From the IMG/VR virus record IMGVR_UViG_3300029813_000127, positions 1-27,846 of that record: a DNA stretch of 27,846 nt, one strand, 5' to 3'. The notes beneath the pieces are model-generated. The model was not told the origin of the DNA and searched no databases. It saw only the letters and a program-made list of their open reading frames with translations. This document shows, one piece after another, positions 4,423-27,732 of this stretch. Within the stretch, counting starts at the first letter, position 1, and the number at the start of each line of letters is the position of its first letter. The position numbers and the translations under genes were made by a program. Origin of the DNA: a virus.

Positions 4423-4730
4423 TGGCACACCATAGATGCACGAGGTGTAAAGAGGAGTCGTATCCCAGGCATAAGTGGCATGGGGGCGTCTTCTGCGATG
4501 GCTGCATACGCTGGATAAGGGGCTCCCTTCCACATACCGGCGGCCGTAGTTGGCTCGGCTCTATATGGGATAGGATAGTTGACTTTGCTACTTCTGTTTT
4601 TCAAGGCAAGACAGTAAAGAGGGTTCGTCTGACAGAGGAGAGGGCGTTGCACTCTCGATTAAAGGCTATGGAGACCAGAGCCAGAAACATTCCATTTAAC
4701 TCAGCAAGTAGCGTACCACAAAACCGATAA
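4422..4730 (+). CDS. Small zinc-ribbon protein of the head module
   Basis: A 102-residue protein of unknown role. C6/C9 (CTRC) and C25/C28 (CDGC), with several histidines between, make a probable one-zinc ribbon. The rest is basic (VKRVRLTEERALHSRLKA), with a possible helix of about 25 residues. Its start overlaps the portal stop by one base, so it is co-translated with the portal. Zinc-ribbon proteins at this position may bind DNA or stabilise head assembly, but nothing in the sequence proves that. Confidence 0.75.
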   Translation: MAHHRCTRCKEESYPRHKWHGGVFCDGCIRWIRGSLPHTGGRSWLGSIWDRIVDFATSVFQGKTVKRVRLTEERALHSRLKAMETRARNIPFNSASSVPQNR

Positions 4731-4740
4731 GGAAGGAATA

Positions 4741-4911
4741 ATGGCAAAGATTAAGTGGACCAAGGACGATGTTATTAAGAAATTCCAGGAGGCTATGACA
4801 TCTCCAGGGCCTGAGACTGGGCAAAGACCAAAATTGCTTCAGAATTTGTTGGACAGGGCAAAGACCAAGATTACACGGAAGCCGACTGAGGGTGAGGAAG
4901 AGACAGTATGA
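4741..4911 (+). CDS. 56-residue hypothetical protein
   Basis: ATG 4741 follows a good ribosome site (AAGGAA) by a few bases, and the frame ends with TGA overlapping the start of the giant gene as ATGA (4908-4911). The product is charged and probably helical (MAKIKWTKDDVIKKFQEA at the start, GEEETV at the end). No motif is recognised. Tight packing between the neighbours on both sides is the main support for its being a real gene. Confidence 0.65.
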   Translation: MAKIKWTKDDVIKKFQEAMTSPGPETGQRPKLLQNLLDRAKTKITRKPTEGEEETV

Positions 4912-7900
4912 ATGGTATCTCTGAATTATTGCAGCGCTATGGAACATCATTAGCCGAAACGAGGGCTTTGATGCCCGAGCTGACTGAGGCTATTAGAAGG
5001 CGCAGGAAACCGGCAATACCGACTGCTCCTCAGTTCTTCACTGCTGGAGAGGCGAGAGAGTTCGGCGTTGAGATAGACCCCGATTGGATGCTTAAAGTAA
5101 CCCCAGGCAAAGATGGAGAGGAGCCTATTTTAAGTCTGATAAGCCCTAAAGGGGAGGATGTAGGCTTAGATGTCTTTGAGACTGAGGCAGGTAAATGGAT
5201 TACCAGGGCGGAAAAGGAGTCTTTTGAAGCTCAACGAGAAGTAGAGTTGGGGAGATGGGAAGAAGCCGTTACCCCCGTTTTCCCTGAGCTTTTCCCTGAA
5301 TTTGCAGAAGCATTTGCTGAATTAACACCTGAAATGACTCGCCGATATATACCAGAGATTATGGAATGGGCGTTTGAAGAGCCGGAAGCCTTCTTGGAGA
5401 GAATGGCGACTGTAGGCAGAACCGAGGAGACTGAAGCTCTGCTGAGGCTCATGGGAGCGGAAGAGGAGTATATTGATGAGTTGTTCAAGACTATCACTCC
5501 CATGTATATCACGCCTGAAGGCAGGTTAATATACACAGAAGCGGAGCTATTTGAGTATTATGCTGAGGCATATAGAGCACCGGAATATGCGGAAATACCA
5601 GACTGGGCAAAGGTCTTTGCTGCCGGCGCCGGCGACTTAATGGTAACTGCCGGCGGAGCAGCAAGGTGGCTCGGGCAAGATGGTATTGGAGAGAGTCTAA
5701 CCAAGCAGGGCCAAGCGTTGCAGCCGCTTGCCTATGATATTCCCACCCAGGCTAACTGGGATACTCTATTCAGCCCTAGATTTTATGCTTTTAGACCAGC
5801 ACCCGAGCACGGCTATCAGGTGCTAAGAGCTTTACCATTTACTATTTCGTTACTTCCAGCGGCTGTAGCAGGTGTTTACGCTGGTTTAGGCACTGCTGCT
5901 GCTGTGGGACTGGGAACACTGGGCAAGCTGATTTTGGCCACTTTTGGAGCTAGTATTATGGCTGCTCCGATGGAGGCTGCCTTAGAAGCAGGGCAAACCT
6001 TTGATGAAGCTCAAGATAAGGGGCTTTCCGTGGAAGAAGCCAAAGTCGCTGCCGATAGCGTATTCAAGAAGAATGTCATGATGCTGGGGGCCACCAACTG
6101 GGCTGAATTTCTGGTAGCCTTTGCTCCTATGCCTTTCAAAGTCCCAGCCAATCTTATAGTTCGGGGATTGGTTACGACCGCTAGAGTTGGGGGCCGGGTG
6201 GTAATTACTGGCTTAACTGAGGCTGGTGAGGAGGCGGTGCAGGAGGTATTTCAGAGACAAGCACTGGGTGAAGAGATAGTGCTTGATGATGAAATGAAGG
6301 CAGCTATAGCCATTGGCGGAATTATGGGGATGGGGCTGGGTGTAGCTGGCGATGTTTGTAGCTCTATTATATATAGGACGAAAGATAATCTATCACCAGA
6401 TCTGAAGGCACAATTTGATAAAGATAAGGCAGCTTTTGAGAGGCAAGGCTTTACTCCTGAGCAAGCAGATTTGAAGGCACTGGACAGCGTAGCTGACACA
6501 GAAGAAGGTGCAAAGGTGGTAGCCGAGGCTACTGAGGCGGTTAAGCAAGCTGAGCTTCTGAATCAGATAAAACCTAAAACTGACGCCGAGCAGGTGGCTT
6601 GGGAGCACATGTCAAAGGACTTCCCCGAAGCAGCAACCCGGGTAGAAGTGCCAATGAATCTTGAAGCCTTACGGCTGGCTGCCAGGCTCAAGGACTATAC
6701 CATTAGTGAGCTAACAGTCCCGGTTGCTAGGATGCCAGCGGCTAAGTTCAGGATTACTGGCAAGGGTGTTAGGGTCTATGCGAGGGATTTGGCTGAAGTT
6801 GAGGCTTTTCTAAAGACTGGCGCATTGAAGGTGCCACCAGCCATTCTAGCTAGGATGAAAGGCGAATTGGCCCACGCTCTATTTGAGGCTGCTGAGGGCA
6901 GAGGATATTTCAAGGATGTGGCTGGATTCCGGGGCGTTGTAGATAAGATGTCTGAGGCAGAGGTGCGTGATTTGCACGCAATGTATGCCAGGACCGGTAA
7001 GATTACTGAGCCAACGCTTATAGGTGCCGAATACACTACTCAAGAGATTATGGAGTTGGAAGGCGAACTGGCTGGTCAAAAGGAATGGATTAGCACTGAA
7101 CCAGCAGCTAAATTAAGGAACTTGATAAAGAAGGTCGGTTGGTATAAGGGTGAGGTCTCCAATCTGACTATAGCACAGTACAAGAAACTTACTGGCAAAG
7201 CTCCCCTAGCAAATATCTTGACTCCAGACAAGAAGCATGTCCGGTGGGAATATGCGCTTGAAGACCCAGCTACAGAAATGGGCTATGCCAGCGGTGAGGA
7301 TCTGAAATATGCTATTGAAAATTCCAATGAGGCTTTGGCCAGGATAAAAAGGCTTGAAGCAGAACTAGCTAAAATTACTCCTGAGATGATGGCTGAAGCC
7401 AAACTTGAGGAAAATAGGGAAAGGATGCTTGAAGCCATTACCGCGGAACGAACAGATGAAGAAACCGTGCCTAGAGGAACAGTAAGGCATCCATCCCAAT
7501 ATAAGGGCATGGAAGACTTCACGGCAGAAGTCAACAGGGAACTCTTCTATCCCATCAAAGAAAGCCCACTAGATATGTCTGCCGCGGTTTACTGGAGAAG
7601 GGGCGACTTTGATGAGTATATAAGATATATGCCTGATGTCAGCGAAATGAAGCTGAAGGCATTAAGCGATGAGGTAAGAGCCAATATTGCCGAGTTAGAG
7701 GAATTGCGGGATGGCATCAATAAAATAATAGACTCTCTCGGGGTGGAAATCTCATTAGAAAAGTCTAGCTCAGAGAAGTTTAAGGCTGGACAGAAAGAAA
7801 TTGCCCAGCTAGAGAATGATGCTCACTACTGTGAAGATTCAATTAAAAAGCTAAAAGGCGGTGAGCGATTAACTGTAGAAGACGCTGTGGCTCTTGGCAT

Positions 7901-10900
7901 TGCTCTCAGAAAAGTTAAGGGGGGGAAGTTGGTTCCCGCCATCAAGAAGAGCGGGTTTTATGTGACCACTGAGTTTGCCGAATATCCAAACTTCAAGGAT
8001 GTGGGGTTTCTCTCCGGTAGAGCAATGGATACGATGACCCTGATGGAAGCCATCGATGGCGGATATGCTACTGGCATGGCACAGAAGTATATCCTGTGGG
8101 CGACTGAGAGGACGCACCTGGCTAAAAATAAGTTTGTTAATACTTACCACCAATTATGCCAAGAGGCTTTTGAGAAGTTCGGTTTAGCAGGGAATAAAGA
8201 GCTGATACGGCTATCCTTTGATGTTACTCAGCAAATCAGTGCTGCCGAGGCTGACTTTAAGACATCACAGCTCTTATACAAGCCAGCTATCAAGGAGCTG
8301 GTTTCTAAGTATAGCAAAGAGACACAAAGCAACATTGTTGAATTTGCCCAGTGGACGAGAGCCTTCCTTGATGACCTACTACGAATGCAGAATCAAGCTA
8401 GAGTCAAAAGGGGGCAGGACCCCATAGAATATAGGGAGAATTATCTGGTATGGGTAGCTGAGACAAATATCTGGGGCAAATTAGGTTGGGGACAAAAGAC
8501 ACCCTCTGACATCTTCCGAAAGCCACCAATGCCCGATTATATCAAGCCTGATGCTCCTTTCAATGCCAGGGCTATGGCTAGGGAAGGCGGTATGCGTGGC
8601 TATGAGATGGAGAGGGATGTTCACAAGCTCCTCTTTGACTATGTAAGGACTGCTGGCAAGGACATCTTTAATACCAACATTATTCAAAATGCCAAAATCC
8701 ATGTTGCAGCTCTGCGTTCAATGGGATATGAGAATAGTGCTCGATTGATAGAGGACTGGTCATCTGAGGCTTTCGCCGGCGTGAAACCAACACTAGAGAA
8801 GGGAGCTGAGGGCTTTATCCCGAGGCCAATGCTCAGATTCGCCTATATAATAAGGCGGAACCTGACTAGAGCCGTTTTCCCCTTGAACTGGATGTGGAAT
8901 ATAACGATACAGCCATCATCCATCGCCTTCACTGTTGGCAGATATGGCACAATAAATACTATGAGGGGCTTAGAATATCTGTTTGTGCCATCAGCCAGAG
9001 CTGAAGCCAGGGAAGCCTATAGCTGGATTATCAAGTCGAGGCGAGCTGGTAAGATGGCTTTTCAGGATATTGGTGCCCAGGTTGAAAAGAACCTTAAGTG
9101 GGAAGGTAACATAATTGATAAAGCAGAGAGCCTTGCCAATGTCATCACCAATACTATGGAGAGTAACCTAACGGGTATTTCTATCCGGGCAGCCTATCAC
9201 TACGGAAAGAGCCTGGGCTATACTGGCAGAGATTTATTGGAGTATGCCTCTAAAGGTGGGGCTAAAACTCAGTCAATGTACAACTACGAGGATGTACCCG
9301 GGGTCCTCCGAGCCAAGCCGGTGGGCACTTTGTTCCCCTTTCAAACCTTCTGCTTCCAAGCATTTAACTATATCAGGGAAATGAACTTTATCGGCAAATT
9401 CAAGGCTGGAGCTTATGAGACCATATCAGCTAAGTCAGCCGAAGGGCAGGCTACTATCCAAAGGCGACTTAGGTTCTTTATACAGTTCTTCGTCTGCATA
9501 ATGTTAATAAATATGGTGGTTGATAAGACGACCAACAGAAAGCCGTGGATATTGCAATCCTTCATCCCGTTTTATTCGAACCTGATGATGGGCACCGATG
9601 CTACTAATCCTTGGAACTGGCCTATCCCGGTGCAATATGCGATGGAGTTCTGGAATGCCTTTCAAGTTGCCATCAAGTATGAGGACTTTAGGAAACTGCG
9701 GAAGTGGCTTATAAGATACCACATGATAGGTGGCACTCAGATTAACCGGATGCTGGACGGCATAGAGGCTGTCATGAAGGGTAGAGTTGAGGATGTCCGG
9801 GGTAAAGAGATGTTTGAAGTGCAACCTGAAGAATGGCTCAAAGCAGTTTTAATGGGACCCTACCAGACTGAAGGCGGCAGGGAGTACATTGATAAGCTAA
9901 CCGAAAAGAAGGGCGAGTGGTATGAATACTTCAAAATTCCCCTGCCGAAGCGGGTCAGCATAAAGGGCGAGATAAACAAAAACCTGGCTATGCTGGGGCA
10001 AGTTGACGAAGAGGGGCAGGTCTATGACTTCAGGGACTTTGTGTCTGACCTCCGTGAGATTAGGCGGGCTGTTGGAGAAAGCAGGTTTGATAAAGATGAT
10101 TCTCCCTTTGTCAAAGGCTTCTTAGAGGCAGAGGAGAGCCGGGAACGCTATGAGCTATATGTCCTGGAGCACTGGGAGGGGCTGATTCCTGAAGAGATAC
10201 TGGAAATTGGGAAAGAGCCGGCTCAAGGGCAAAGGGATGAATGGCGGGCATTGAATCCAGAAGATGATGCCCGTTTAGCTATGTGGGGATATGGCGGTAG
10301 GATACAGACTCAAAAAGCCTACGACCTGGTTAAGCAATGGTGCAACGAACTTGGTGTGCCGCTGGAGCATCTATCCTGCTGGCTACCACCGGAAGTCATT
10401 GCTGAGACTTACTTCAAGTATATTGACGCGGTGAACGAATTTACTGCTGGTAGTGCTGAGGCTAGACTGATTAGGCTTGAAGACCCCGAATTTCAAGCGT
10501 GGGGCAAAGAAGCCTATGATTGGAAGGATATAGATACCCATATTGAATCCCTGAGAATCTCTGTCAAGTGGGGAGAGATGGATGATAGATACGATGCCCT
10601 TGACCCAGATGACCGCCCTGCTTTCCTTGAGGCTAATTCTGAATATGCTGACGATAGGCGTAGAAGGGATGCCTATAACTTGGGGTTTGATAAACAAGAA
10701 GGTCTAATAGACATTGAGAGTCGGTCTTGGACTATCCTTGAACGGCATAGAATATTCCACATCATACCAAAGGAAGATGAGAAAGGTGGGAGCCAACCAA
10801 GCCAAGAGCAACTGAATATTCTAATGGATTATTATAATATGACCCCTGCTACAAGGGCTATGGTTGAAAATACAGTATGGGCAGTAGGCCCAGGGCAGGC

Positions 10901-11963
10901 TGGTATCTATGGGGGATTGTGGGATGAAGTAACAAACATAATTTATATTCCACCCGAAACTAACCTCCCCGACCAAGTAATACCTTGCCTCCTGCATGAA
11001 TTGGGAGAATGGGCTTGGCGACAATTAAGCGATGCTGAACGCCAAGCATATTTTGATGCCTTTATAACGGAAGCCAAAACGAACAAGCATATTGGTGAAC
11101 TTTATAGACACTTTAGTGAGCCAATTAAGGTAGATAGGGATAGCTTCAGCGAACTTTATGCCCTTGTATTTAATCTCCTTAATTCAGATGAGATACCCGA
11201 ATCGCTATTGAAATATTACTACCCAATAACGAAAGCAATGCCACGGGGTAAAGGAGAAAACCTAATAGAAACCTATGTTGAGTGGTATAAAACGCCAAGG
11301 AAGGGTTACGCAGACGATTGGTTCCTGATGGAGCACAAGGACTTCTATGATGCGATGGTAAAGCTAGAGCAATTAAAAGAGAGGGACTTCAGTAAAGTCC
11401 CTGATATTAAGTATAAAGAGCTTTGGATTGGATGGGAAGATTGGGACGAGAGATACGAGGCTACTGAGGATAAAGAGGCTTTCCGAGAGGAGAACGCTGA
11501 ATATCATACATTGCTGAGGCGGAGAGAGGCTGTAATAAAAGGCCTCCCCGATAACCTTATAGAGACCTATGCTGACTACTATACCAATCCCAAGCTCAAA
11601 AAGCCAGAGGATTGGAAGTATGACTACTGGTTTGAGGATGACTGGTGGTTGATGGAACACCCAGAATTTGAAGTAGCTATGGTGGACTTATATCGTGCCA
11701 CTAATGGCAAAGAAGGCTGGAAGGAAGCTGGGGACTTCAGCAAAGTGCCTTCCATGGTGGTCTTTGAACTTTACAAAACATATCAAGGCTTGCCCTCGGG
11801 GACTCCGAGATACGATTTCAGGGCGAAACACCCAGAACTAGACGCTTGGCTGGTTCTGAAGTTTGGATACAAGCCAATAGCTGAACGGGGCGAGAAGGAA
11901 GCCGAGAAGACACCCTGGGAGATACAGCAAGAGGCAGAGAAGTTCAAGGAGAAGTTTAAGTAG
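4908..11963 (+). CDS. Giant 2351-residue polyvalent-type virion protein
   Basis: One uninterrupted frame coupled to the previous gene by ATGA. The N-terminal ~230 residues are mostly acidic and helical. Residues about 300-345 and 455-485 are Gly/Ala-rich hydrophobic stretches (for example SLLPAAVAGVYAGLGTAAAV). A long charged helical middle follows. Residues about 1310-1540 contain RNLTRAVFPLNWMWN, LFPFQTFCFQ and the membrane-like FFIQFFVCIMLINMVV. This resembles the large associated domains of phage polyvalent proteins. At H2030-E2034 is HELGEW, with SELYALVF about 45 residues later. That looks like a zincin (HExxH) helix pair, but the second histidine is replaced. From 1894 to the end there are repeated modules (RYxAxxxxx, NLIETY, LMEH). 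Its site between portal and scaffold is where MuF-type internal proteins usually lie, so it may be packaged and ejected with DNA. Function is inferred. Confidence 0.7.
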   Translation: MNGISELLQRYGTSLAETRALMPELTEAIRRRRKPAIPTAPQFFTAGEAREFGVEIDPDWMLKVTPGKDGEEPILSLISPKGEDVGLDVFETEAGKWITRAEKESFEAQREVELGRWEEAVTPVFPELFPEFAEAFAELTPEMTRRYIPEIMEWAFEEPEAFLERMATVGRTEETEALLRLMGAEEEYIDELFKTITPMYITPEGRLIYTEAELFEYYAEAYRAPEYAEIPDWAKVFAAGAGDLMVTAGGAARWLGQDGIGESLTKQGQALQPLAYDIPTQANWDTLFSPRFYAFRPAPEHGYQVLRALPFTISLLPAAVAGVYAGLGTAAAVGLGTLGKLILATFGASIMAAPMEAALEAGQTFDEAQDKGLSVEEAKVAADSVFKKNVMMLGATNWAEFLVAFAPMPFKVPANLIVRGLVTTARVGGRVVITGLTEAGEEAVQEVFQRQALGEEIVLDDEMKAAIAIGGIMGMGLGVAGDVCSSIIYRTKDNLSPDLKAQFDKDKAAFERQGFTPEQADLKALDSVADTEEGAKVVAEATEAVKQAELLNQIKPKTDAEQVAWEHMSKDFPEAATRVEVPMNLEALRLAARLKDYTISELTVPVARMPAAKFRITGKGVRVYARDLAEVEAFLKTGALKVPPAILARMKGELAHALFEAAEGRGYFKDVAGFRGVVDKMSEAEVRDLHAMYARTGKITEPTLIGAEYTTQEIMELEGELAGQKEWISTEPAAKLRNLIKKVGWYKGEVSNLTIAQYKKLTGKAPLANILTPDKKHVRWEYALEDPATEMGYASGEDLKYAIENSNEALARIKRLEAELAKITPEMMAEAKLEENRERMLEAITAERTDEETVPRGTVRHPSQYKGMEDFTAEVNRELFYPIKESPLDMSAAVYWRRGDFDEYIRYMPDVSEMKLKALSDEVRANIAELEELRDGINKIIDSLGVEISLEKSSSEKFKAGQKEIAQLENDAHYCEDSIKKLKGGERLTVEDAVALGIALRKVKGGKLVPAIKKSGFYVTTEFAEYPNFKDVGFLSGRAMDTMTLMEAIDGGYATGMAQKYILWATERTHLAKNKFVNTYHQLCQEAFEKFGLAGNKELIRLSFDVTQQISAAEADFKTSQLLYKPAIKELVSKYSKETQSNIVEFAQWTRAFLDDLLRMQNQARVKRGQDPIEYRENYLVWVAETNIWGKLGWGQKTPSDIFRKPPMPDYIKPDAPFNARAMAREGGMRGYEMERDVHKLLFDYVRTAGKDIFNTNIIQNAKIHVAALRSMGYENSARLIEDWSSEAFAGVKPTLEKGAEGFIPRPMLRFAYIIRRNLTRAVFPLNWMWNITIQPSSIAFTVGRYGTINTMRGLEYLFVPSARAEAREAYSWIIKSRRAGKMAFQDIGAQVEKNLKWEGNIIDKAESLANVITNTMESNLTGISIRAAYHYGKSLGYTGRDLLEYASKGGAKTQSMYNYEDVPGVLRAKPVGTLFPFQTFCFQAFNYIREMNFIGKFKAGAYETISAKSAEGQATIQRRLRFFIQFFVCIMLINMVVDKTTNRKPWILQSFIPFYSNLMMGTDATNPWNWPIPVQYAMEFWNAFQVAIKYEDFRKLRKWLIRYHMIGGTQINRMLDGIEAVMKGRVEDVRGKEMFEVQPEEWLKAVLMGPYQTEGGREYIDKLTEKKGEWYEYFKIPLPKRVSIKGEINKNLAMLGQVDEEGQVYDFRDFVSDLREIRRAVGESRFDKDDSPFVKGFLEAEESRERYELYVLEHWEGLIPEEILEIGKEPAQGQRDEWRALNPEDDARLAMWGYGGRIQTQKAYDLVKQWCNELGVPLEHLSCWLPPEVIAETYFKYIDAVNEFTAGSAEARLIRLEDPEFQAWGKEAYDWKDIDTHIESLRISVKWGEMDDRYDALDPDDRPAFLEANSEYADDRRRRDAYNLGFDKQEGLIDIESRSWTILERHRIFHIIPKEDEKGGSQPSQEQLNILMDYYNMTPATRAMVENTVWAVGPGQAGIYGGLWDEVTNIIYIPPETNLPDQVIPCLLHELGEWAWRQLSDAERQAYFDAFITEAKTNKHIGELYRHFSEPIKVDRDSFSELYALVFNLLNSDEIPESLLKYYYPITKAMPRGKGENLIETYVEWYKTPRKGYADDWFLMEHKDFYDAMVKLEQLKERDFSKVPDIKYKELWIGWEDWDERYEATEDKEAFREENAEYHTLLRRREAVIKGLPDNLIETYADYYTNPKLKKPEDWKYDYWFEDDWWLMEHPEFEVAMVDLYRATNGKEGWKEAGDFSKVPSMVVFELYKTYQGLPSGTPRYDFRAKHPELDAWLVLKFGYKPIAERGEKEAEKTPWEIQQEAEKFKEKFK

Positions 11964-16393: not shown

Positions 16394-16780
16394 ATGGCAG
16401 AGAGAACTATTCCGACTGCATTACTGTTTCAGACTGCGAGTAAGTTCCTCAAGGGTGATGCCCCATCTAAGTTTAGCCATCTAGGCTTATCTAAAGGCAC
16501 TATGGCTGCTATGGATGTGGACACCATCAAATTTGCTTCTGAGATTACCAGGGAAGCAGTTTCGGGAACACTGGCAACAACTACCAAGACCGATGACACA
16601 ATCTCTATGTCAAAGGCAACTTGGAAGCCTGGTGCCAACACCATTTATGGTGCTGGGGTATTTACTGCTATCACTGGCGACCTGTTGCAGACATTCCATG
16701 AATGGGCTGCAAGCGTAACCTTTGAAGCTGATGACACAGTTACCGAGACCATCAAAGTCCAGTCTAAGCAGGGTGCGTAG
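16394..16780 (+). CDS. Small virion protein, possibly tail/appendage subunit
   Basis: A 128-residue beta-rich protein with its own AAGGAGG site. The second half (GANTIYGAGVFTAITGD, then VTFEADDTVTETIKV) resembles the small phage structural proteins built of alternating strands found among decoration, appendage and tail-tube subunits. A G-rich hairpin follows its stop. No tail-tube or sheath gene is otherwise recognisable, so this is one candidate for a repeated tail subunit. The call is by resemblance of pattern only. Confidence 0.45.
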   Translation: MAERTIPTALLFQTASKFLKGDAPSKFSHLGLSKGTMAAMDVDTIKFASEITREAVSGTLATTTKTDDTISMSKATWKPGANTIYGAGVFTAITGDLLQTFHEWAASVTFEADDTVTETIKVQSKQGA

Positions 16781-16838: not shown

Positions 16839-17426
16839 ATGATTTCATTAGACGAGGGTGAAGCAAGGCTATTAGCTAAATACTGGGGCAGGAATGACCT
16901 GGTTGAGGACGAGGAATTCTGGCAGGATGTCTTTGACTATTACACTTTTGAAATCCACGATGCACCCCTACCCTTAATGTTTGACCCTTATACAGTCAGG
17001 AGGGTGCTGGAGATGCTGAAGTGTCCATCTGGAGTGTGTGGTAAGTGTTGTTACTATGACAATATACAGGTCAGCCCCAGCGACATTAAGCGGATAATAG
17101 AAAACACCTCATACACAGATGAGGATTTAGCAAAGCTATTAACGATTAAAAATGACAAGGTGGTTTTGAATGGGAAGCCTGATGGATGTCCTTTTCTTAA
17201 AGATAACAGTTGTATGATATATGATTTTAGACCTGATTGTTGTTATATGTTCCCGTTTAGCGGGAGGGATGCTATGGCTGGGAATGTTCAGGTCAAGCAG
17301 ATGCAGATAAGGATTATATGCGAGCCAGCTTTGGCAGTAGTGAGAAAGTTAATCACAGAGGTAATAGAAAAGGGGGAGACTTTACTACTCCCCGATTTAA
17401 CGATAATTCCAAAGGTGGAGGGTTAG
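16839..17426 (+). CDS. YkgJ-type cysteine-cluster protein
   Basis: 195 residues. The middle has the YkgJ-family metal-chelating signature: C62, then C67xxC70C71 (CGKCC), C117 in GCPFL, C125 in SCMIYDF, and R131P132 followed by C134C135 and FPF. In the family the pattern is Cx(n)CGxCC, CPFL, C.IY, RPxxCR.FP. Here CR is replaced by CC. These proteins probably bind zinc or an iron-sulfur centre; the cellular role is not settled. The first 60 residues are an acidic helical extension. It lies between a virion gene and a zinc-ribbon gene that starts one base after its stop. The local DNA is visibly more A/T-rich than the head genes, compatible with acquisition. It is unusual for a phage. Confidence 0.8.
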   Translation: MISLDEGEARLLAKYWGRNDLVEDEEFWQDVFDYYTFEIHDAPLPLMFDPYTVRRVLEMLKCPSGVCGKCCYYDNIQVSPSDIKRIIENTSYTDEDLAKLLTIKNDKVVLNGKPDGCPFLKDNSCMIYDFRPDCCYMFPFSGRDAMAGNVQVKQMQIRIICEPALAVVRKLITEVIEKGETLLLPDLTIIPKVEG

Positions 17427-17676: not shown

Positions 17677-20600
17677 GTGGAACAGGTATTAGTTGGTGGT
17701 TTCTATAGTGCCCTAAATGCTGTAACTACTGAATATAACTGCCTACAGGGGGGGTATAGTTGGTATAATGTTGCAGTTTATGTAGAGACGACAATTAGCA
17801 GTTCAGGTAAGATTAAGGGATTGCGTGTCAAACTTAATGATAGTCCTGGAACAGACAAGTCCTACACTTTCACATTGATGGTTAATGGGACACCTACTGC
17901 CTTAACCTGCACGATAGCTGATGCCGCTATAAGTGCCTCAGATACTGAACACGAAGTAACTGTCTCTCCTGGGGATTATGTTTCCTTAAGGTGTGTTCCC
18001 ACTGGCACCCCTACAGCACGATATGCCCGATGGGCTTCCATATTTGATGGAACTACAGCAAAAGAAAGTCTTATTATGGGGGCTCCTTGCGCAATACAGA
18101 CAGATACCTCACAAACAGAGTATAGCTCATTGATGGGAAGGTCTGGGCTGAGTGAAACTGAGAATGATTTTCGTCAAGTTTGTCCGACTGCGGGTAAGAT
18201 TAAAAACCTCTATATTCAGTTACAAGACGACCCAGGGACATCTCCAGATGCTTATAGATTTACTCTTAGGGTCAATGGTGCGAATAGCGATGATGGTGGA
18301 GGAAACCCACTTCAAGTAACCATTGTTGCTAACGATAAAGTTGGTAATGATACTACTCACGAAATTAGTGTAGTGGCTGGAGATATTTTAACACTAATGG
18401 TTGAACCCATAGATACACCTACTTACCCTACTAATGTTAATTGGGGAATGACATTTGTTGCTGACACTGATGGTGAGAGTATTATACTAGCAGGAACTGG
18501 GGTCGACCTAGACGATAGTGCTACGGAATATAATTTTCTTACAGGACTATGGCATGGCTGGAGTGCTACTGAAAGCCAAAAATACCAATTAGCACAATCC
18601 TGCACCTTGAAGAAGTTATATGTATTGTTAAATGGTAGCCCAGGAGCAGGTAATAATTATACCTTCACAGTAAGACAGAATGGTGCAAGCCCTGCCAATG
18701 GTCTGGTAGTTGAAATAACTGGTGTTGCGACCACAGGGAACGATACAGCTCATACTATAACCATATCAAATGATGATGATCTAGATTTGATGGTTGTCCC
18801 CACTAGCACTCCAACAGTAAGGGATGCCTACTGGGGGTTGGTGTGCTATACAGGACCGCTGCACTACGACCGCTCATCTACAGCCTTACTTGGTTTGAAG
18901 GGGACTGCTTCTAAGACTAGAGTCGCAGTCAGAAGCGACACAGCTTTATTAGGTCTACTCCCTACTGGTGCCAGAACAATGGCTTATACCAGAAGCAAGA
19001 CTGCGCTACTTGGTCTGTTCTCCACTGCGTCAAGGACTTTAGTTTTAACCCTTGTAGATACTCCCCTCTTGGGATTACTTACATCTGCTAGTAGGGCTAT
19101 GGTCTATGCTGCTAAGGTCGGCACAGCTCTATTAGGGTTAAAAACCACAGCATCCAGAGTTGTTAGCTACAGCAGAGTTCAAAGTGCATTATTAGGATTA
19201 AAGCCCACCGCCACCAGAGTTATTACACTGACCCGGGCTGACATATCCTTACTTGGCCTAAAGACCACGGCTACCAGGGCTATCGCTTACGCTAGAACTA
19301 ATACTGCCTTGCTGGGCCTGAAGTCCACAGCGACAAGAGTGATAGTCCTCACCAGAGCGGATACTGCCTTACTGGGGTTGCTCGCCACAGGGACTAGAGC
19401 TATAGTTTATGCTGAAAAGTCAGCAACTGCCCTTCTGGGTCTATTATCTACTGGGACTAGGAGTGTCAGCTATGCCCGAACCAAGACAGCTCTCTTAGGT
19501 TTGAAGACAACTGCCTCTCGCATAGTAGCCTATACAAGAACTAAGTCTGCATTGCTTGGCTTAAAGACCACCGGAGCAAGGGTAGTAATCTTGACCCGTG
19601 CCGGTACTGCTCTACTAGGGTTAAAGACCACAGGTGAAAGAGCTGGTTACTACTTCATGACTGGCGTTGCACTTCTTGGGCTGAAGGCAACCGCCACCAG
19701 AACAGTTGCTTATACGAGGACTGAGACTGCCCTACTGGGGTTAAAGGCGACAGCTTCTAGGGTAGTGAGTTTAAGCCGGGCTGACACTGCTTTACTGGGG
19801 TTGCTTTCCACAGCTTTAAGAGCGGTGGCCTATGCACGGGTGAATACGGCTCTACTCGGACTCAAAGCTACCGCTTCTAGGGTAATGATTTTAAGCCGTG
19901 CCGATTCTGCTCTACTCGGACTCAAGGGGACTGCCTCCAGAGTATTGACTTTAACTAGGGAGAATACCGCCTTATTGGACTTGAAACCTACCGCTTCAAG
20001 GTTGGTAGCATATTCTAGGACAGCCACCGCTTTATTAGGCTTGACGGCTGCCGGGGTAAGAACTGTTATCTTGACCCGTAGTAGCACTGCCTTACTCGGG
20101 CTGAAGACCACTGCCACAAGGGTCGTATCATACTCAAGGGTGAACACCGCTTTGCTGGGTCTAAAGTCTACTGGTGCCAAGGCGGTGGCTCGGGTCCGAA
20201 CCGGCACAGCACTTCTTGGATTAGAGGCTACCGCCGTAAGGACAGTGGTTCTATCCAGGAGTGATACCGCACTGTTAGGGCTGAAGGGAGTGGGGACAAG
20301 GGTTATCTCTATCACTCGGTCCGACACTGCCTTACTAGGCTTAAAACCTACTGCGTCCAGGGCTGTAGCCTATGTTCGGAGCGGAACTGCTTTGCTGGGG
20401 CTAGAGACAACCGCAAGCAGATTGGTGGGGTATATCAGGTCTGGCACTGCTTTATTAGGACTGAAAGGAACAGCCTCTCGCACAATAGCTCTCACCCGGG
20501 TAAAGACTGCGCTCCTGGGTTTGGAGACAACTGCCTCCAGAGCTATGGCATACGCCAGAGTTGCTACAGCTTTGCTCGGTCTAAAGTCTACTGCTTCCCG

Positions 20601-20919
20601 GGTTATTGTCCTCACTAGGTCGGATACAGCCTTATTAGGATTGAAAACTACGGCAGTGAGAGCAGTAGCTTACACTAGGGCTGATACAGCTCTACTCGGA
20701 CTCAAAACTACCGCGACAAGAGTGGTAGCCTATACACGGACTGGGGCAGCTCTATTAGGCTTGAAGTCTACGGCTACCAGGGTCATTGCATTAACACGGA
20801 CAGGCACAGCATTATTAGGACTCAAGACTACCGGTATTTACTCAATGATGAGGGTACTAGGTCTAAAGGTCATCACCAGCACTTACAGGAAGCTAAAGAC
20901 ATTTACGAGTGGAGGTTAG
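17677..20919 (+). CDS. 1080-residue fibre-like protein with 20-residue repeats
   Basis: Starts at GTG 17677, directly on the previous stop, with GGAGAAG ahead. Residues 1-~395 are three similar beta-sandwich-like domains of about 130 residues. Each has a strand block with K-IK-L-V-L, then SPGT..YTFTL.VNG, then DT.HE..V..GD, and a closing PT.TPT...W. From residue 402 there are 32 complete repeats of 20 (two of them 21) residues with the pattern TALLGLKxTAxRVxxYTRxx, then a partial repeat and a short tail. The repeats are very basic, with about one Lys and two Arg each. A 20-residue period of two short strands fits a beta-solenoid shaft. The protein is probably a virion surface fibre or shaft with binding domains at one end. 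No signal peptide or anchor is seen. Confidence 0.65.
18880..20835 (+). repeat. 33-unit, 60-base tandem coding repeat
   Basis: Thirty-two complete units plus a partial one (from 20806) fill the second half of the fibre gene. Thirty units are 60 bases and two are 63, so the array is always in frame. The Leu-Leu-Gly-Leu core is written with many synonymous codons. A few units share long identical strings (GCTCTACTCGGACTCAA near 19850, 19910 and 20690), as expected of old amplification plus a few later copies. Confidence 0.95.
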
Positions 20920-20923
20920 CTAT

Positions 20924-21484
20924 ATGGCGATAGAAGTTGGCGAGGTCAGAAGAGCTAGGGAGATAGGACGAAAAGGAAACTATAAATATATCCGGGCAGC
21001 TTGTGTGGATTGTGGTAAGGAACGGTGGATTCAAGTTAAAGATGGGGAGCCCCGGAATCTAAGGTGCAGGTCTTGCAGTAATTCCTTTCTTGCTAAAAAC
21101 TGGGGAGGTGGGAGAACAACAACCTCAAAAGGTTATGTTCAGGTTAAACTATTCAAAGATGACTTCTTTTACCCAATGGCTGCCAAAAATGGCTATGTTT
21201 TAGAACATAGGCTAGTTATGGCGAAGAAGCTGGGACGGTGCCTTCAATCGTGGGAGCATGTGCAACACAAAGGGGTAAGGTATAGTGGGGTCGCGAATAA
21301 GCAGGATAATCTAGAGGACAATTTGGAGTTGACTACCAACGGAAGCCACATTAAAGAGCATCAGAGGGGTTATAAAGCTGGATATGCGAGAGGTCTGGCT
21401 GACGGGCGAACCAAGCAAATAGAAGAACTGAAACAAGAAATCAGACTTTTAAGATGGCAAATGCAGCAGGAGGCAAGAATATGA
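20924..21484 (+). CDS. HNH endonuclease with zinc ribbon
   Basis: A 186-residue HNH-family nuclease of the free-standing phage homing type. The N-terminal domain has C27xxC30 and C48xxC51 (CVDC, CRSC), a zinc ribbon. The HNH core lies between about 92 and 146: [15 protein letters not shown], then H112/H115, NLEDNLEL (N130, N133) and the terminal H142/H146. The C-terminus is a coiled coil. ATG 20924 is chosen because GGAGG (20911-20915) lies 8 bases upstream. The stop overlaps the next start (ATGA). The N-terminal half is clearly related to the nuclease at 26163. Confidence 0.85.
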
Positions 21485-21795
21485 TAGAGGTAGTCACTAC
21501 ATTCCAGAAAGAAGAGACGGTCTGGATTTTAGCCTATGTCTACAACCAGCGGACTGGCGCCCCTGCTGGCCCCACGGCAATCACACTAACTCTCAGTGGG
21601 CCTGATGGAGTAGCGGTTTTTCCTGAACCAGTAGCCATGAGTGAGTACACTGAGGGAGAATACCAATACTTCTACACACTCCCTCCAGATGCAAAAAGGG
21701 GCTGGTGGAGAGGGCTCGTAAAGGTCGTGGATGGCAGTGTTGCAGGGGGAGACTACAAAGCCACAATCGCAACCTTTGGATTCAGGATAAAGTAG
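21481..21795 (+). CDS. Small Ig-like tail protein
   Basis: 104 residues. ATG 21481 is coupled to the preceding stop (ATGA) and preceded by AGGAGG at 21468-21473. The protein is a run of beta strands ([44 protein letters not shown]), the layout of an Ig- or carbohydrate-binding-like domain such as those found next to tail-tip proteins. It stops directly before the tail-tip gene. It may be a tail-tip accessory subunit or upper-baseplate protein. No catalytic motif. Confidence 0.55.
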
Positions 21796-24531
21796 ATGAG
21801 AGAACTACCACCCGAACTCAAGGCAGCCCAAGAGGCTATGGTTATAGACCCCTTGGTCAAAATTGTCCTTACTCATGGGGCCAGCTCTTATACTTATGAC
21901 CGGGACCGCATCTTAGACAGGAACCACCCGGAAGAGCCATATAGCCAGAAGGCCACGGTAGTGCTGGACAATAGTGATGGGGCATTAACTAATCTTGCTT
22001 TGCAAGGTTATAAGGGTGTTATTTCTTATGGTGCGATAACCGGTGCTGGTGAGGAGTATTCCGCTTGTGCTCCTCTGTGGGTAATCGGGCAGCAGCTAGA
22101 ATCTTCTCCAGGCAAGCTAGATTGCACTCTTGAGCTTATTGGGATAATGAACCTGATGGCTGAGGACAAAGCCAGTGCCAAATATATGCCCGATGAGACC
22201 GACACGAAGACTGTTAAAACGCTTATCAATGAGATACTCGGTGCTACTCTAGCCTGCTATTCCCACTGTGATGCGGTGCAAGTAAAGTGGGAAACTGGTT
22301 ATGACACCCTGGCTGACACATACAAACCAAAGGACACCTTCAGGATATATGCTGGTGGCTCCAGGCTGGCAGCATTTAGAAGGCTATTAGACTATACGGG
22401 CAATGTGGCTCGGGCTGAGGCTGACGGCAAGGTTCATATTTTTAAGCCGATTACTAGCGGAGTAGTCTATGACTCCGAATACAGTCTTGAGAGCGGACAC
22501 ACCTTCTTCTCCAAGGCTTATCGCAAGCGAGTGGTGATTCCGGGTTACATCGTGGTGAAAAGCCAGCCAGATGATGTCCCTCAATACTCTGGGTTTGCTA
22601 AAGACCCGGGGTATGATGCCCTGCCGGCAAAATTAAAGAAGCAAGACTTTAAGCAGATGAGGCTGGAAAGCAGCGACCCCCAGGCCAATGATATAGCTGC
22701 TGCAATCCTGTCTAAGCATCAGCTATGGTCAGAGATGGGAGCCGCCGATGTTCCTATGAATGTCGGTGCCGAGGTATTTGACTATGTGAAGGTCGCTGCC
22801 CTTTGCGCTGAAGATGTTTACCGGGTAGGCAATCTGGGACATCTGACACGCCACTACAACGCCGAGAGAGGCGAATGGCGGATGACCTTTAGCTTTGGTA
22901 ACTGGATGACAGTAAGGAAGGCACTGGCTAATTTAGACCCTACGGGCAGCATCGGCACGGATGAGCTTGAGGAATACTTTAGCCGGCTGCAAGTCAAAGA
23001 CCTCTATGCTGAGAACATCCTGGCTGAGAACATGGCTTTTGTCTGGATTGACCCCGATAACAACATTGACTTGTCCAAGATAGGGGATAACCTGGACAAT
23101 CTACCTGATGGAGAGGTCTTTGCTAGGGTTAAAACATTACACCTCAGTGCCGAAGGCGGTATCAAGCTAGATGAGCATATCCTTTATAAAGCTGGCTACG
23201 ACCCCGATACCAAGCGGAGGAATTTCACCTCAACACCCACTACCCCTTATGACTCAGGAGATATGTGGACGGATGGCACGGTGCTTAAACGATGCACGAC
23301 AGCCAGGGCGACCGGGGCTTATGTGGCGGGTGATTGGACACAGGTATCAATTGATGAGATAAAAGACGGCTCCATTTACCAGCGGGCTAAGAGTGCAGCT
23401 CTGACGCCTGATGGGCTAGTCATCCTTGACCAAGTATATGTGGATACTGAGGCTGGTGAATATGGCTTAGTTAAAAGAACGGGCATCAGTGCTGGCAAGA
23501 TTTTATTATCAGAGAGCACACCAGATGATGACCACCTTTTAACATCTACTACTGAAAAAACAACTTGGAATGGCAAAGAGATCGCTATTAAAAGGGGCAC
23601 TACTGCACCAGCAGACAAAACAAAGCTATGGCTAGATACTTCAACAACTCCTTATGTTTGGAAGCGGTGGTCTGGTGCAGCGTGGGTGAAAGCTACACCC
23701 ACTAAAGCGGACGAGATTGCAGAAACGGCATACTTAAAGTGGGCTGCTGAGCACGGCGCTGATGTAACTGCCGGCAAACCTTTGAGTGTTTTAACTAATA
23801 GGACGCTGGAGTTTATCGCTGATAGCACTTACCGGAAGTCTGTAACGGGTAATGAGAAGATTGGTGCCAGTGATGCCTATGATGTCTTTGAGTCTAAATT
23901 AACCGCCTATGGTCTATCTCTATGGACAGCCAATAGCACTACCAGAGTGCAACTAACCGCAGCCGGCTTGAAGGGCTATTCTGGTGGTGTTCTACAGGTA
24001 GAGATTAGAGCTTCAGACGGCAAGATATATGCTGGGGGTGGGAATGTTATTATTGGTGCTGGTGGTATAGAGATTAGAGGGGCTACTCAACTAAAATTTA
24101 CCTATGGTGGCTCATATGCTGCTTATATCTATGTAGCATCCTCTAGAAACTTAGTTATCAGCCCCAGCACCGGGTATTTTCTTGAGACTACTACAGACTT
24201 TAAGACAAAAAATGTAAGACCTGACACTCATGAGAGTCGTGCTTGCGGATACTCCGATAATGCTTGGTCTCAGGTCTGCACCAAATACCTCTACACTAAA
24301 AGCACAAGCTGGGTATCATACCAGAAGCATGATGATATTGCTTTGTTAAAAGCTATTAAGAGCAAAAAGGAAAAAGGGAAGGACATTATAGATATTCAAA
24401 CACTCCCGAAGGAACTTGTCATTGACAACGATTATGTGAATGTAGCAGGCATGCACGGTCTTAATATCGGCGTGATGAAAGCTCTTTTGGCGAGAATAGA
24501 AGCCTTAGAAGCTAAAAAGACGGATATATAA
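21796..24531 (+). CDS. Phage tail-tip/fibre protein
   Basis: 911 residues, starting at the base after the preceding stop. Residues 1-~380 form the hub-like part: an opening VKIVLTHG, a sandwich domain and repeated beta-alpha segments, as in tail-tip (Tal/hub) proteins. Residues about 480-640 carry two copies of the fibre motif ending in GDWTQV and AAWVKA, with GDMWTDG and KLWLDTS, a short W-containing module common in siphovirus tail fibres. Residues 640-800 are beta-rich fibre. The last ~105 residues (from NVRPDTHESRACG) resemble a C-terminal intramolecular chaperone of the S74 type, but without a clear catalytic SD.R.K set. It probably recognises the host surface. It overlaps the opposite-strand gene end by 27 bases. 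Confidence 0.75.
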   Translation: MRELPPELKAAQEAMVIDPLVKIVLTHGASSYTYDRDRILDRNHPEEPYSQKATVVLDNSDGALTNLALQGYKGVISYGAITGAGEEYSACAPLWVIGQQLESSPGKLDCTLELIGIMNLMAEDKASAKYMPDETDTKTVKTLINEILGATLACYSHCDAVQVKWETGYDTLADTYKPKDTFRIYAGGSRLAAFRRLLDYTGNVARAEADGKVHIFKPITSGVVYDSEYSLESGHTFFSKAYRKRVVIPGYIVVKSQPDDVPQYSGFAKDPGYDALPAKLKKQDFKQMRLESSDPQANDIAAAILSKHQLWSEMGAADVPMNVGAEVFDYVKVAALCAEDVYRVGNLGHLTRHYNAERGEWRMTFSFGNWMTVRKALANLDPTGSIGTDELEEYFSRLQVKDLYAENILAENMAFVWIDPDNNIDLSKIGDNLDNLPDGEVFARVKTLHLSAEGGIKLDEHILYKAGYDPDTKRRNFTSTPTTPYDSGDMWTDGTVLKRCTTARATGAYVAGDWTQVSIDEIKDGSIYQRAKSAALTPDGLVILDQVYVDTEAGEYGLVKRTGISAGKILLSESTPDDDHLLTSTTEKTTWNGKEIAIKRGTTAPADKTKLWLDTSTTPYVWKRWSGAAWVKATPTKADEIAETAYLKWAAEHGADVTAGKPLSVLTNRTLEFIADSTYRKSVTGNEKIGASDAYDVFESKLTAYGLSLWTANSTTRVQLTAAGLKGYSGGVLQVEIRASDGKIYAGGGNVIIGAGGIEIRGATQLKFTYGGSYAAYIYVASSRNLVISPSTGYFLETTTDFKTKNVRPDTHESRACGYSDNAWSQVCTKYLYTKSTSWVSYQKHDDIALLKAIKSKKEKGKDIIDIQTLPKELVIDNDYVNVAGMHGLNIGVMKALLARIEALEAKKTDI

Positions 24532-26162: not shown

Positions 26163-26654
26163 ATGCCACAATTAGGGGATATTAAAAGAGCTAGGGATTT
26201 AGGATACAAAGGCCGAGACAAACATATATGGGCTGCATGCTCAGAATGTGGGAGAGAGCGATGGGTTCTTCTTAGACTTAATATACTCCCTAAAAAATGC
26301 TGGGCTTGTGCTACTAAACAGATGGGTTTAGCCTTCAAATGCGGTGAGGAAAACCCAAGATGGAATGGCGGGAGATTCAAAACCACAGATGGATATATTG
26401 CTGTGAAGTTACAGCCTAATGACCCATTTTACCCGATGGCTACTAAACGAGGCTATGTCTTGGAGCATCGCCTCATTATGGCAAAGCATCTAGGGCGGTG
26501 TCTCCTAGACGAGGAGGTTGTCCATCACGATGATGACAATGGATTAAACAATTCATTTTTTAATTTAATTTTGTTTATTTCAACCGCTGTTCACTCCGCC
26601 CTACATATGAAAGCACAATCTAATCTCTATTTGAAATCGCAATCTAAAAATTAA
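26163..26654 (+). CDS. Second HNH endonuclease with zinc ribbon
   Basis: 163 residues, homing-type HNH nuclease. Ribbon cysteines C26/C29 and C46/C49; then YVLEHRLIMAKHLGR and the HNH core with H121-H122-D123-D124, NN at 129-130, N134-L135 and H144/H148. All expected positions are present, so it is probably intact. The N-terminal 50 and the YVLEHR segment match the nuclease at 20924, although the DNA differs at many sites, so this is an old paralogue rather than a recent copy. It stands alone between the late terminators and the integrase; its stop overlaps the integrase stop by three bases, convergently. Its ribosome site is weak. Confidence 0.85.
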   Translation: MPQLGDIKRARDLGYKGRDKHIWAACSECGRERWVLLRLNILPKKCWACATKQMGLAFKCGEENPRWNGGRFKTTDGYIAVKLQPNDPFYPMATKRGYVLEHRLIMAKHLGRCLLDEEVVHHDDDNGLNNSFFNLILFISTAVHSALHMKAQSNLYLKSQSKN

Positions 26655-27616
26655 AATTTCATATTGTCCACAGGACTGGCTTTTTGGTGTGCTTTGAAAG
26701 AATCTTCCACTCCCAATGTTGAGACATACCGCCTAGTCATGTAAAGTGATTCATGGCCAAGTATAAGTTGTAAGGCGAATTCACCCATTCCATTTCTCAG
26801 ACAAGTAGTCGCAAAACTGTGGCGAAAAGTGTGGGGTGAACAGCGAACACCTGTAAAGCCTGCCCTCTTTCCTAGCTTTCCAATCATCAACTCAATTCCC
26901 CAATGGGTAAGAGGTCTCCGTTCCTCGCTGACCCACAAGCAAGGTAGCCCATCATTCCTCATCAAGAGATACCTCAGTATAGCCTTCTGTGCCTTTTTGC
27001 CGATCCTAACTACCCTCTCTTTAGCACCTTTGCCCATCACCTTTATTGTCTCGCGGTCAAAGTCTATGTCCTTGAGCTGAATGTTAGCCAGCTCTGATAA
27101 CCTTAACCCGGTATCAAGAAAGGTGAGGATAATGGCTTTGTTTCTAGCTCCCAAGAATTTGCTATCATCACATAAGAGGAGCAAATCCTGTATCTGTTCG
27201 GGCTTGAAGGGCTGGATAATTTTATCGGGTGGTTTGCGAAGCCGAATTGAGGACATCGGGCTTTGTTTCAATGTTCCTTCATCTACCATCCAGGCGAAGA
27301 ATCGCTTTATAGCTCGGTAATTATTATAGACAGAGACTCGTTGGCAGGTGTCCTGGAGCTTCAGAAGGAATAACCTAATGTGATGTGGTGTAATGTGATG
27401 TGGTGTAATGTGATGTGGGTCGGTTATCTCAAGGCCAGCTAAAAATCTAACAAAGACGCTTAACTTTTGGTCATAGCCCTTGATAGTCCAGGGCGAAAGC
27501 TCCTCCACCCTGCACGATAATAGGAAGACTTTGAGTTGTCCCTCAAGAGTTCTTTGGTCTACGCCAGATAGCGAGCCTATCTGAACCTTATTGATAGTTC
27601 TTTGGTCTAGAGTCAT
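26651..27616 (-). CDS. int: Tyrosine integrase
   Basis: 321-residue site-specific recombinase of the XerC/phage integrase family. The N-terminal core-binding domain (residues about 25-115) and catalytic domain (from 140) are in the usual order. R172 (TGLRLSEL), K199 in GKGAKERVV, H262 and R265 (HTFRHSF), H288 (LGHES) and the nucleophile Y297 (RRYVS) are all present, so it is expected to be active. It lies 36 bases from the tRNA gene, consistent with integration at the tRNA 3' end. Residues 67-79 are a triple PHHIT-like repeat within the core-binding domain, unusual for the family. No strong ribosome site precedes the ATG, so translation might depend on read-through from the tRNA transcript. 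Confidence 0.93.
   Translation of the reverse strand: MTLDQRTINKVQIGSLSGVDQRTLEGQLKVFLLSCRVEELSPWTIKGYDQKLSVFVRFLAGLEITDPHHITPHHITPHHIRLFLLKLQDTCQRVSVYNNYRAIKRFFAWMVDEGTLKQSPMSSIRLRKPPDKIIQPFKPEQIQDLLLLCDDSKFLGARNKAIILTFLDTGLRLSELANIQLKDIDFDRETIKVMGKGAKERVVRIGKKAQKAILRYLLMRNDGLPCLWVSEERRPLTHWGIELMIGKLGKRAGFTGVRCSPHTFRHSFATTCLRNGMGEFALQLILGHESLYMTRRYVSTLGVEDSFKAHQKASPVDNMKF
27377..27418 (-). repeat. 15-base tandem repeat inside the integrase gene
   Basis: Plus-strand units AATGTGATGTGGTGT at 27377-27391 and 27392-27406, and a partial third at 27407-27418. They encode repeated HHITP in the core-binding domain (residues about 67-80). The 15-base length keeps the frame, so copy number could change without destroying the gene. 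Confidence 0.9.
27548..27609. repeat. 14-base direct repeat at the integrase start
   Basis: AGTTCTTTGGTCTA occurs at 27548-27561 and again at 27596-27609, 48 bases apart. They encode two DQRT copies near the integrase N-terminus (residues 4 and 20). Direct repeats beside an integration site are often integrase or excisionase arm-binding sites. Confidence 0.55.
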
Positions 27617-27724
<108 letters not shown>

Positions 27725-27732
27725 ACAGGCAA

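Follow-up and report, generated by a model that had tools for sequence, protein, structure and literature searches.

The open reading frame at positions 17677-20919 of the window (the whole 27,846-base virus record analysed here, which carries terminase, major head protein, HNH and integrase genes) encodes on the + strand, from a GTG start, a protein of 1080 aa that we read, with a probability of about 0.7, as the tail-fibre (receptor-binding) protein of a temperate tailed phage, its repeats forming the shaft, its C-terminus docked and its N-terminus facing outward. Underlying this reading are the repeat itself, its family, the gene order around it, replacement of the gene in its slot, domain swaps and continuity with a tail hub in two relatives, all of which are observed; from these we infer that the protein belongs to the virion and binds the host, as well as its fold, its oligomeric state and, for the window's own phage, its polarity. 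As the protein matched no tail-fibre family in PHROGs or Pfam, the fibre class is assigned by context and function rather than by membership of a named sequence family.

The proposed shaft (18880..20865, + strand) occupies residues 402-1063 without a gap, residue 402 lying at nucleotide 18880 and residue 1063 ending at 20865, and consists of 33 twenty-residue units, 31 of exactly 20 aa and two of 21; the assignment draws on a table of these units, the family, codon entropy and an all-beta, low-confidence model. LL[GD]L anchors occur 33 times, spaced by 20 residues (30 times) or 21 (twice), and suffice by themselves to exclude a chance origin of the array. The unit consensus is TALLGLKxTASRVVxYTRxD, with L3, L4 and L6 invariant in the 31 exact 20-mers and G5 (30/31), T9 (29/31), R12 (28/31, with K in 2) and R18 (28/31) nearly so, whilst the last unit is degenerate in its second half, so that '32 full units plus one' is an accurate description. 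Lysine and arginine together average 2.79 per unit and aspartate and glutamate 0.55, a net charge of about +2.2 per unit, and the array has a pI of 11.8 compared to 4.4 for the N-terminal part. The repeat count, coordinates and charge estimated in a previous, sequence-only reading of this DNA were thus correct. Its 40-residue superperiod, built on alternation of Tyr and Leu types, did not hold up: similarity between every second unit is at the average level (lag-2 z = -0.07), the largest z values fall at lags 3 and 6 (1.75 and 1.95), and position 16 shows weak alternation (shuffle p = 0.005 in the window protein, 0.09 in its nearest homolog). In most homologs the natural start of the array reads [HQ]Y[EDT]RSGTALLGL, which implies that the array opens with the end of the second strand, and some of the odd units are recognisable as matched between the window array and that of its closest relative (contig L002, 44 units).

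The array is old by the measures available from its DNA. Units share on average about 54% of their nucleotides, which explains why Tandem Repeats Finder reported no DNA repeat at the array, and adjacent units are no closer (0.539) than all pairs (0.536). At the invariant Leu and Gly positions, and at most Thr ones, codon use is about as varied as it is genome-wide, Arg12 being the exception, and such randomisation at invariant positions implies that the protein sequence has long been held by selection. Recent tandem expansion or gene conversion can be ruled out on both counts: the array is neither newly duplicated nor undergoing homogenisation, and selection evidently keeps its amino-acid sequence.

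Searching with a profile of the repeat identified 15 other viral contigs with an array, L002 included, each of which may be a fragment, and in which a loose count of anchors puts the arrays at roughly 9-45 units. Two phages encode two array proteins each, with a second, short protein bearing the same repeats after the main fibre gene (L014, 9249-9656; L017, from 9474). Outside this set, the repeat-profile scan of genomes from 84,980 prokaryote species and a tblastn search of plasmids with the array both returned no match, leading us to reject a cellular or plasmid origin; a looser DNA pattern scan of genomes yielded, among the matches listed, low-complexity Leu/Gly/Phe frames and not the TALLGLK family. 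Weak partial matches to the array were all that 50,697 phage records provided, no match was found in Pfam, PHROGs or PDB sequences, and such a repeat was not described in the open-licence papers searched. The proposal that the repeat is new is therefore upheld.

Evidence for a fibre comes in part from gene order, which in most array contigs runs from a 128-aa protein through the array gene and an Ig-like protein of about 100 aa to a protein of 690-911 aa. In the window, the conserved 128-aa protein (16394..16780, + strand) has no Pfam match, and it precedes the array gene in most array contigs as its upstream partner. Between the fibre and Ig-like genes lies an HNH endonuclease gene (20909..21484, + strand; phrog_20891, E 5.6e-15), which is probably an intruder and outside the fibre, since it is missing at that place in most relatives. 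The Ig-like (MG2-like) protein of 113 aa (21454..21795, + strand; MG2 E 3.5e-4, below Pfam's cut-off) is a probable tail-tip connector; a search with this protein alone found no relatives, and aligned homologs come after the array gene in L012, L018, L019, L021 and L023, with a fusion to the array C-terminus in L022. The 911-aa protein (21796..24531, + strand) is probably a tail-hub or tail-tip protein, judging from its position, from homologs beside the array gene, from the PF06605 hub found at the equivalent place in L020 and from weak tail matches such as that of its L018 homolog to phrog_1887 (E 7e-4). By eye, its last ~50 residues (NVAGMHGLNIGVMKALLARIEALEAKK) resemble a Peptidase_S74-type intramolecular chaperone end, a likeness for which no library match was found.

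An alignment of the 128-aa protein provides a view of this locus that is independent of the repeat. Scanning with it recovered 16 contigs: 13 with an array, two that end too soon, and L276, in which a tail-fibre N-terminus (phrog_8469, E 7e-19) occupies the slot of the array gene. Where the contig extends far enough, the slot therefore holds an array in 13/14 cases and a tail fibre in 1/14. In L020 the array gene is preceded by tape measure and Dit genes and followed by a PF06605 hub (E 7e-35). Location in a tail-tip module was found in the window and most relatives, the exceptions being L009, L013 and L015, where the array gene precedes head-tail connector genes and so does not stand at the tail tip. 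Gene order, homologs and slot replacement in L276 together back the idea, raised from the sequence at the outset, that the array is the shaft of a phage appendage.

Several other features of the window and its relatives were observed alongside. Within 26651-27725 an integrase gene is followed by tRNA-Met (27652-27725), a probable attachment site; the end of the window may be a prophage border, and the pairing, together with the terminase, major head protein and HNH genes, points to a temperate tailed phage whose record was possibly cut at that site. HNH endonuclease genes recur beside the fibre gene (window 20909-21484 and 26163-26654; L010 8647-9225; L018 4707-5264 and 5658-6131), as if homing elements favoured its exchange-prone neighbourhood. 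The gene for a CxxCxxCC protein (PF03692, E 3.7e-11; putatively zinc/iron-chelating) lies after that of the 128-aa protein and before the fibre gene (window 16839-17426; L002 6450-7064; L013 5395-5976), and a few genes upstream of the L002 fibre lies a fused glycosyltransferase-methyltransferase gene (4391-5716), a candidate for modification of sugars on the virion or host surface. A 2351-aa protein of the window (4908-11963), encoded in the interval from the portal-position gene to the capsid genes, has no Pfam or PHROGs match; the LLHELGEW in its C-terminal part may be a zinc-metallopeptidase motif, and large ORFs related to this one stand at the same place in L012, L014, L021 and L023.

Which end of the fibre would meet the host is suggested by how its two ends vary. 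The N-terminal head (17677..18879, + strand), proposed as the host-binding part, consists of three divergent copies of a ~130-aa domain (36-39% identical to one another) and found no match in Pfam, PHROGs or PDB. In homologs it is replaced by unrelated domains: the 14 complete array proteins used for typing carry eight types of N-terminal domain without detectable mutual similarity, matches to DUF2341, BNR-type repeats and a phage protease occur at the N-terminus or within inserts, and in L023 the N-terminal domain is nearly absent (30 aa). C-termini are more uniform, with half of 16 falling in one group, and a ~10-residue motif of the TSQYRKIKV type ends eight family members. One copy of that motif lies in the window's C-terminal tail (20866..20916, + strand), 17 residues that differ from the units and form the proposed attachment end. 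Two relatives carry the array into the hub itself. In L016 and L020 the last ~75 residues of the array ORF are homologous to each other, and those of L016 match positions 7-71 of the hub-like phrog_4311; in L020 the next ORF matches phrog_4311 from position 184, at its own residue 103. With matches on both ORFs, the hub continues across the ORF boundary, so that a tail hub is split over two ORFs (L016 7164-10705; L020 6936-10654) with an ATGA overlap at the junction. No slippery sequence shared by the two junctions was visible that would allow a frameshift to join the array and hub ORFs. Taken together, these comparisons place the C-terminus, by inference, on the tail and the N-terminal domains outward. 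In the window's phage, the C-terminal tail would dock on the tail tip, for which the Ig-like and hub-like proteins are encoded next, the number of units would set the reach of the fibre, and the N-terminal domains would face outward and touch the host.

Specificity would then shift through swaps of the N-terminal domain or insertion of domains at unit boundaries, and exchange of this kind is observed among the relatives. Array DNA of L012 and L020 is 97.8-98.7% identical in two blocks, yet their N-terminal domains and C-termini are unrelated and their gene orders differ, with the hub fusion in L020; between the shared blocks, L012 has an additional globular domain plus units. The junction switches within AAGAC, at the Lys-Thr unit boundary and in register. 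Together with seven array inserts of 59-529 aa in five homologs, this documents exchange at unit boundaries.

What fold the shaft adopts is less readily answered, and trimeric and monomeric-solenoid models are rated about equal. Each 20-residue unit of the beta-rich rod would fold into two turns and two short strands, at about positions 1-7 and 12-18, with Leu4, Leu6, Val14 and Tyr16 buried and Arg12 and Arg18 retained for structure. Two single-chain AF2 predictions were obtained. The first (ten units, 14 aligned segments) was all-beta, with one turn per 20 residues, periodic strands and no helix in the array (pLDDT 57, pTM 0.52); the second (23 rows, C-terminal tail included) gave patchy strands and a C-terminal helix (pLDDT 47, pTM 0.29). 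The beta structure in the original proposal is thus supported by the better model. Quite conceivably, though short of probably, three copies of the chain interleave their beta strands to make a homotrimeric shaft, like the triple beta-spiral found in adenovirus and reovirus fibres; it would then be well above 16 nm long. Such a shaft would be unpredictable from a single chain, in keeping with the low confidence of both models; each of the two strands has hydrophobic residues on either face (positions 2-4, 6 and 13-16), suggesting burial between chains; and hubs of the PF06605/phrog_4311 sort, with which the array C-terminus is continuous in L016 and L020, are trimers. Against this, the sequence matches no solved fibre and the better model is solenoid-like.

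The second candidate, a monomeric right-handed beta-solenoid of about 16 nm with one 20-residue rung per repeat, is plausible but somewhat doubtful. In its favour, VIA placed right-handed solenoids (DUF2807, SRRP and Dot proteins) closest to the first model among solved shapes (Z 13-16, rmsd 2.5-3.1), the fit to left-handed solenoids being poor (rmsd ~10.7), and similar arrays of the Microbacterium phage protein gp68 touch DUF2807 in Pfam at E 0.006, below cut-off. However, the window protein found no match to DUF2807 (PF10988) in Pfam up to E 1, Foldseek with the first model found nothing below E 0.1 among PDB structures and nothing below E 0.001 among viral ones, and strands with two hydrophobic faces would be odd in a free monomeric rod. 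AF2 often yields confident but unrealistic beta-solenoids from repeats, even meaningless ones (PMC11795689), which makes a weak solenoid model poor evidence; the second prediction fell further in confidence. Of the beta-solenoid originally proposed, then, a solenoid-like shape is seen in one of the two models, and the suggested rod length of 15-16 nm holds only for one rung of ~0.48 nm per repeat, resting as it does on that fold.

It is improbable that charge is itself the function, with the array binding anionic polymers or DNA (teichoic acid, capsule or phage DNA), despite the strongly basic composition of the window array and the fact that all 16 family members are net basic, at +0.8 to +3.2 per unit. 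Acidic LGLTDS arrays of other phages, whose kinship is unproved, have net charges of -1.3 to -2.5 and nonetheless concentrate what basic residues they have at positions 12 and 18, which favours a structural role for Arg12 and Arg18; moreover, the variable part of the family consists of unrelated folded domains. The earlier charge argument stands in so far as the array and its family are basic, and falters on these acidic arrays, leaving charge as weak evidence for polymer or DNA binding. Less likely still is a reading in which the prophage expresses the protein as a secreted or surface adhesin that is absent from the virion: the phage is temperate, with its integrase beside tRNA-Met, and homologs carry adhesin-like domains, but the array gene sits within a run of structural genes, continues into a hub in two relatives and gives way to a tail fibre in another.

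If the tail-fibre reading is correct, the repeat offers a recognisable shaft signature for receptor-binding proteins in uncultivated temperate phages where nothing else would identify the fibre genes, and a testable claim of C-terminal attachment of such fibres to the tail. The family also provides a natural case of domain exchange at repeat boundaries, in which arrays 98-99% identical have had both ends swapped between different phage types. Should the fold prove new, a further shaft type would be added to those known; should it not, the repeat would be a sequence signature for a known one. A broader, tentative and on balance unlikely possibility is that phage fibre shafts of this kind form a widespread, undescribed class that comes in acidic, basic and neutral forms, all sharing ~20-residue units, basic positions 12 and 18 and an LGL core. 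Such shafts would hold to the hub by their C-terminus and carry swappable N-terminal domains, contrary in polarity to the rule that fibres are usually anchored N-terminally, and their beta fold would be one that PDB does not yet contain. Other ~20-residue arrays occur in unrelated phages (L007 3188-5734, L025 10734-13171 and L089 3490-7735), flanked by a small beta-type gene and a ~100-aa gene that looks Ig-like by eye, and may be part of one wider fibre-shaft class.

Comparison with known systems finds partial likenesses at several levels. The LGLTDS arrays (IMG/VR contigs L046, L069 and L089), of which no earlier description was found, share with the window array 20-21-residue units, the basic positions 12 and 18 and an LGL core, a likeness preset by a retrieval pattern that fixed LGL; unlike it, they are net negative and lack L3. 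A relationship to the window array is suggestive only, the profile link being non-significant (4/30 column-permuted controls scored equally high). Searching by tblastn with the array found those of Microbacterium phage vB_MoxS-R1 gp68 (QWT28918.1, annotated glycerophosphodiester phosphodiesterase) and fecal phage MT835599 (34-38% identity, E 1e-4 to 3e-3), both with ~20-residue beta-like units (GTLGLDGTATRIVSVTRAG) C-terminal to an N-terminal enzyme domain and, in MT835599, with a short C-terminal tail and then a small Ig-like-looking gene after the array; in contrast to the window, they have about five irregular units that are not basic, are rich in Gly and Thr and lack the TALLGLK core. Right-handed beta-solenoid adhesins (DUF2807 3lyc, 4opw and 3jx8; SRRP 5nxk) resemble the low-confidence model of the array in shape, but are cellular proteins without sequence similarity to the array, whose own fold is a prediction. 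From the PF06605 (Prophage_tail) hubs of siphophages the window differs in that its fibre and its 911-aa hub-like protein are separate genes and the latter has no PF06605 match; in L016 and L020 the likeness is close, the array ORF ending in a match to the first domain of a hub whose remainder is encoded by the following gene.
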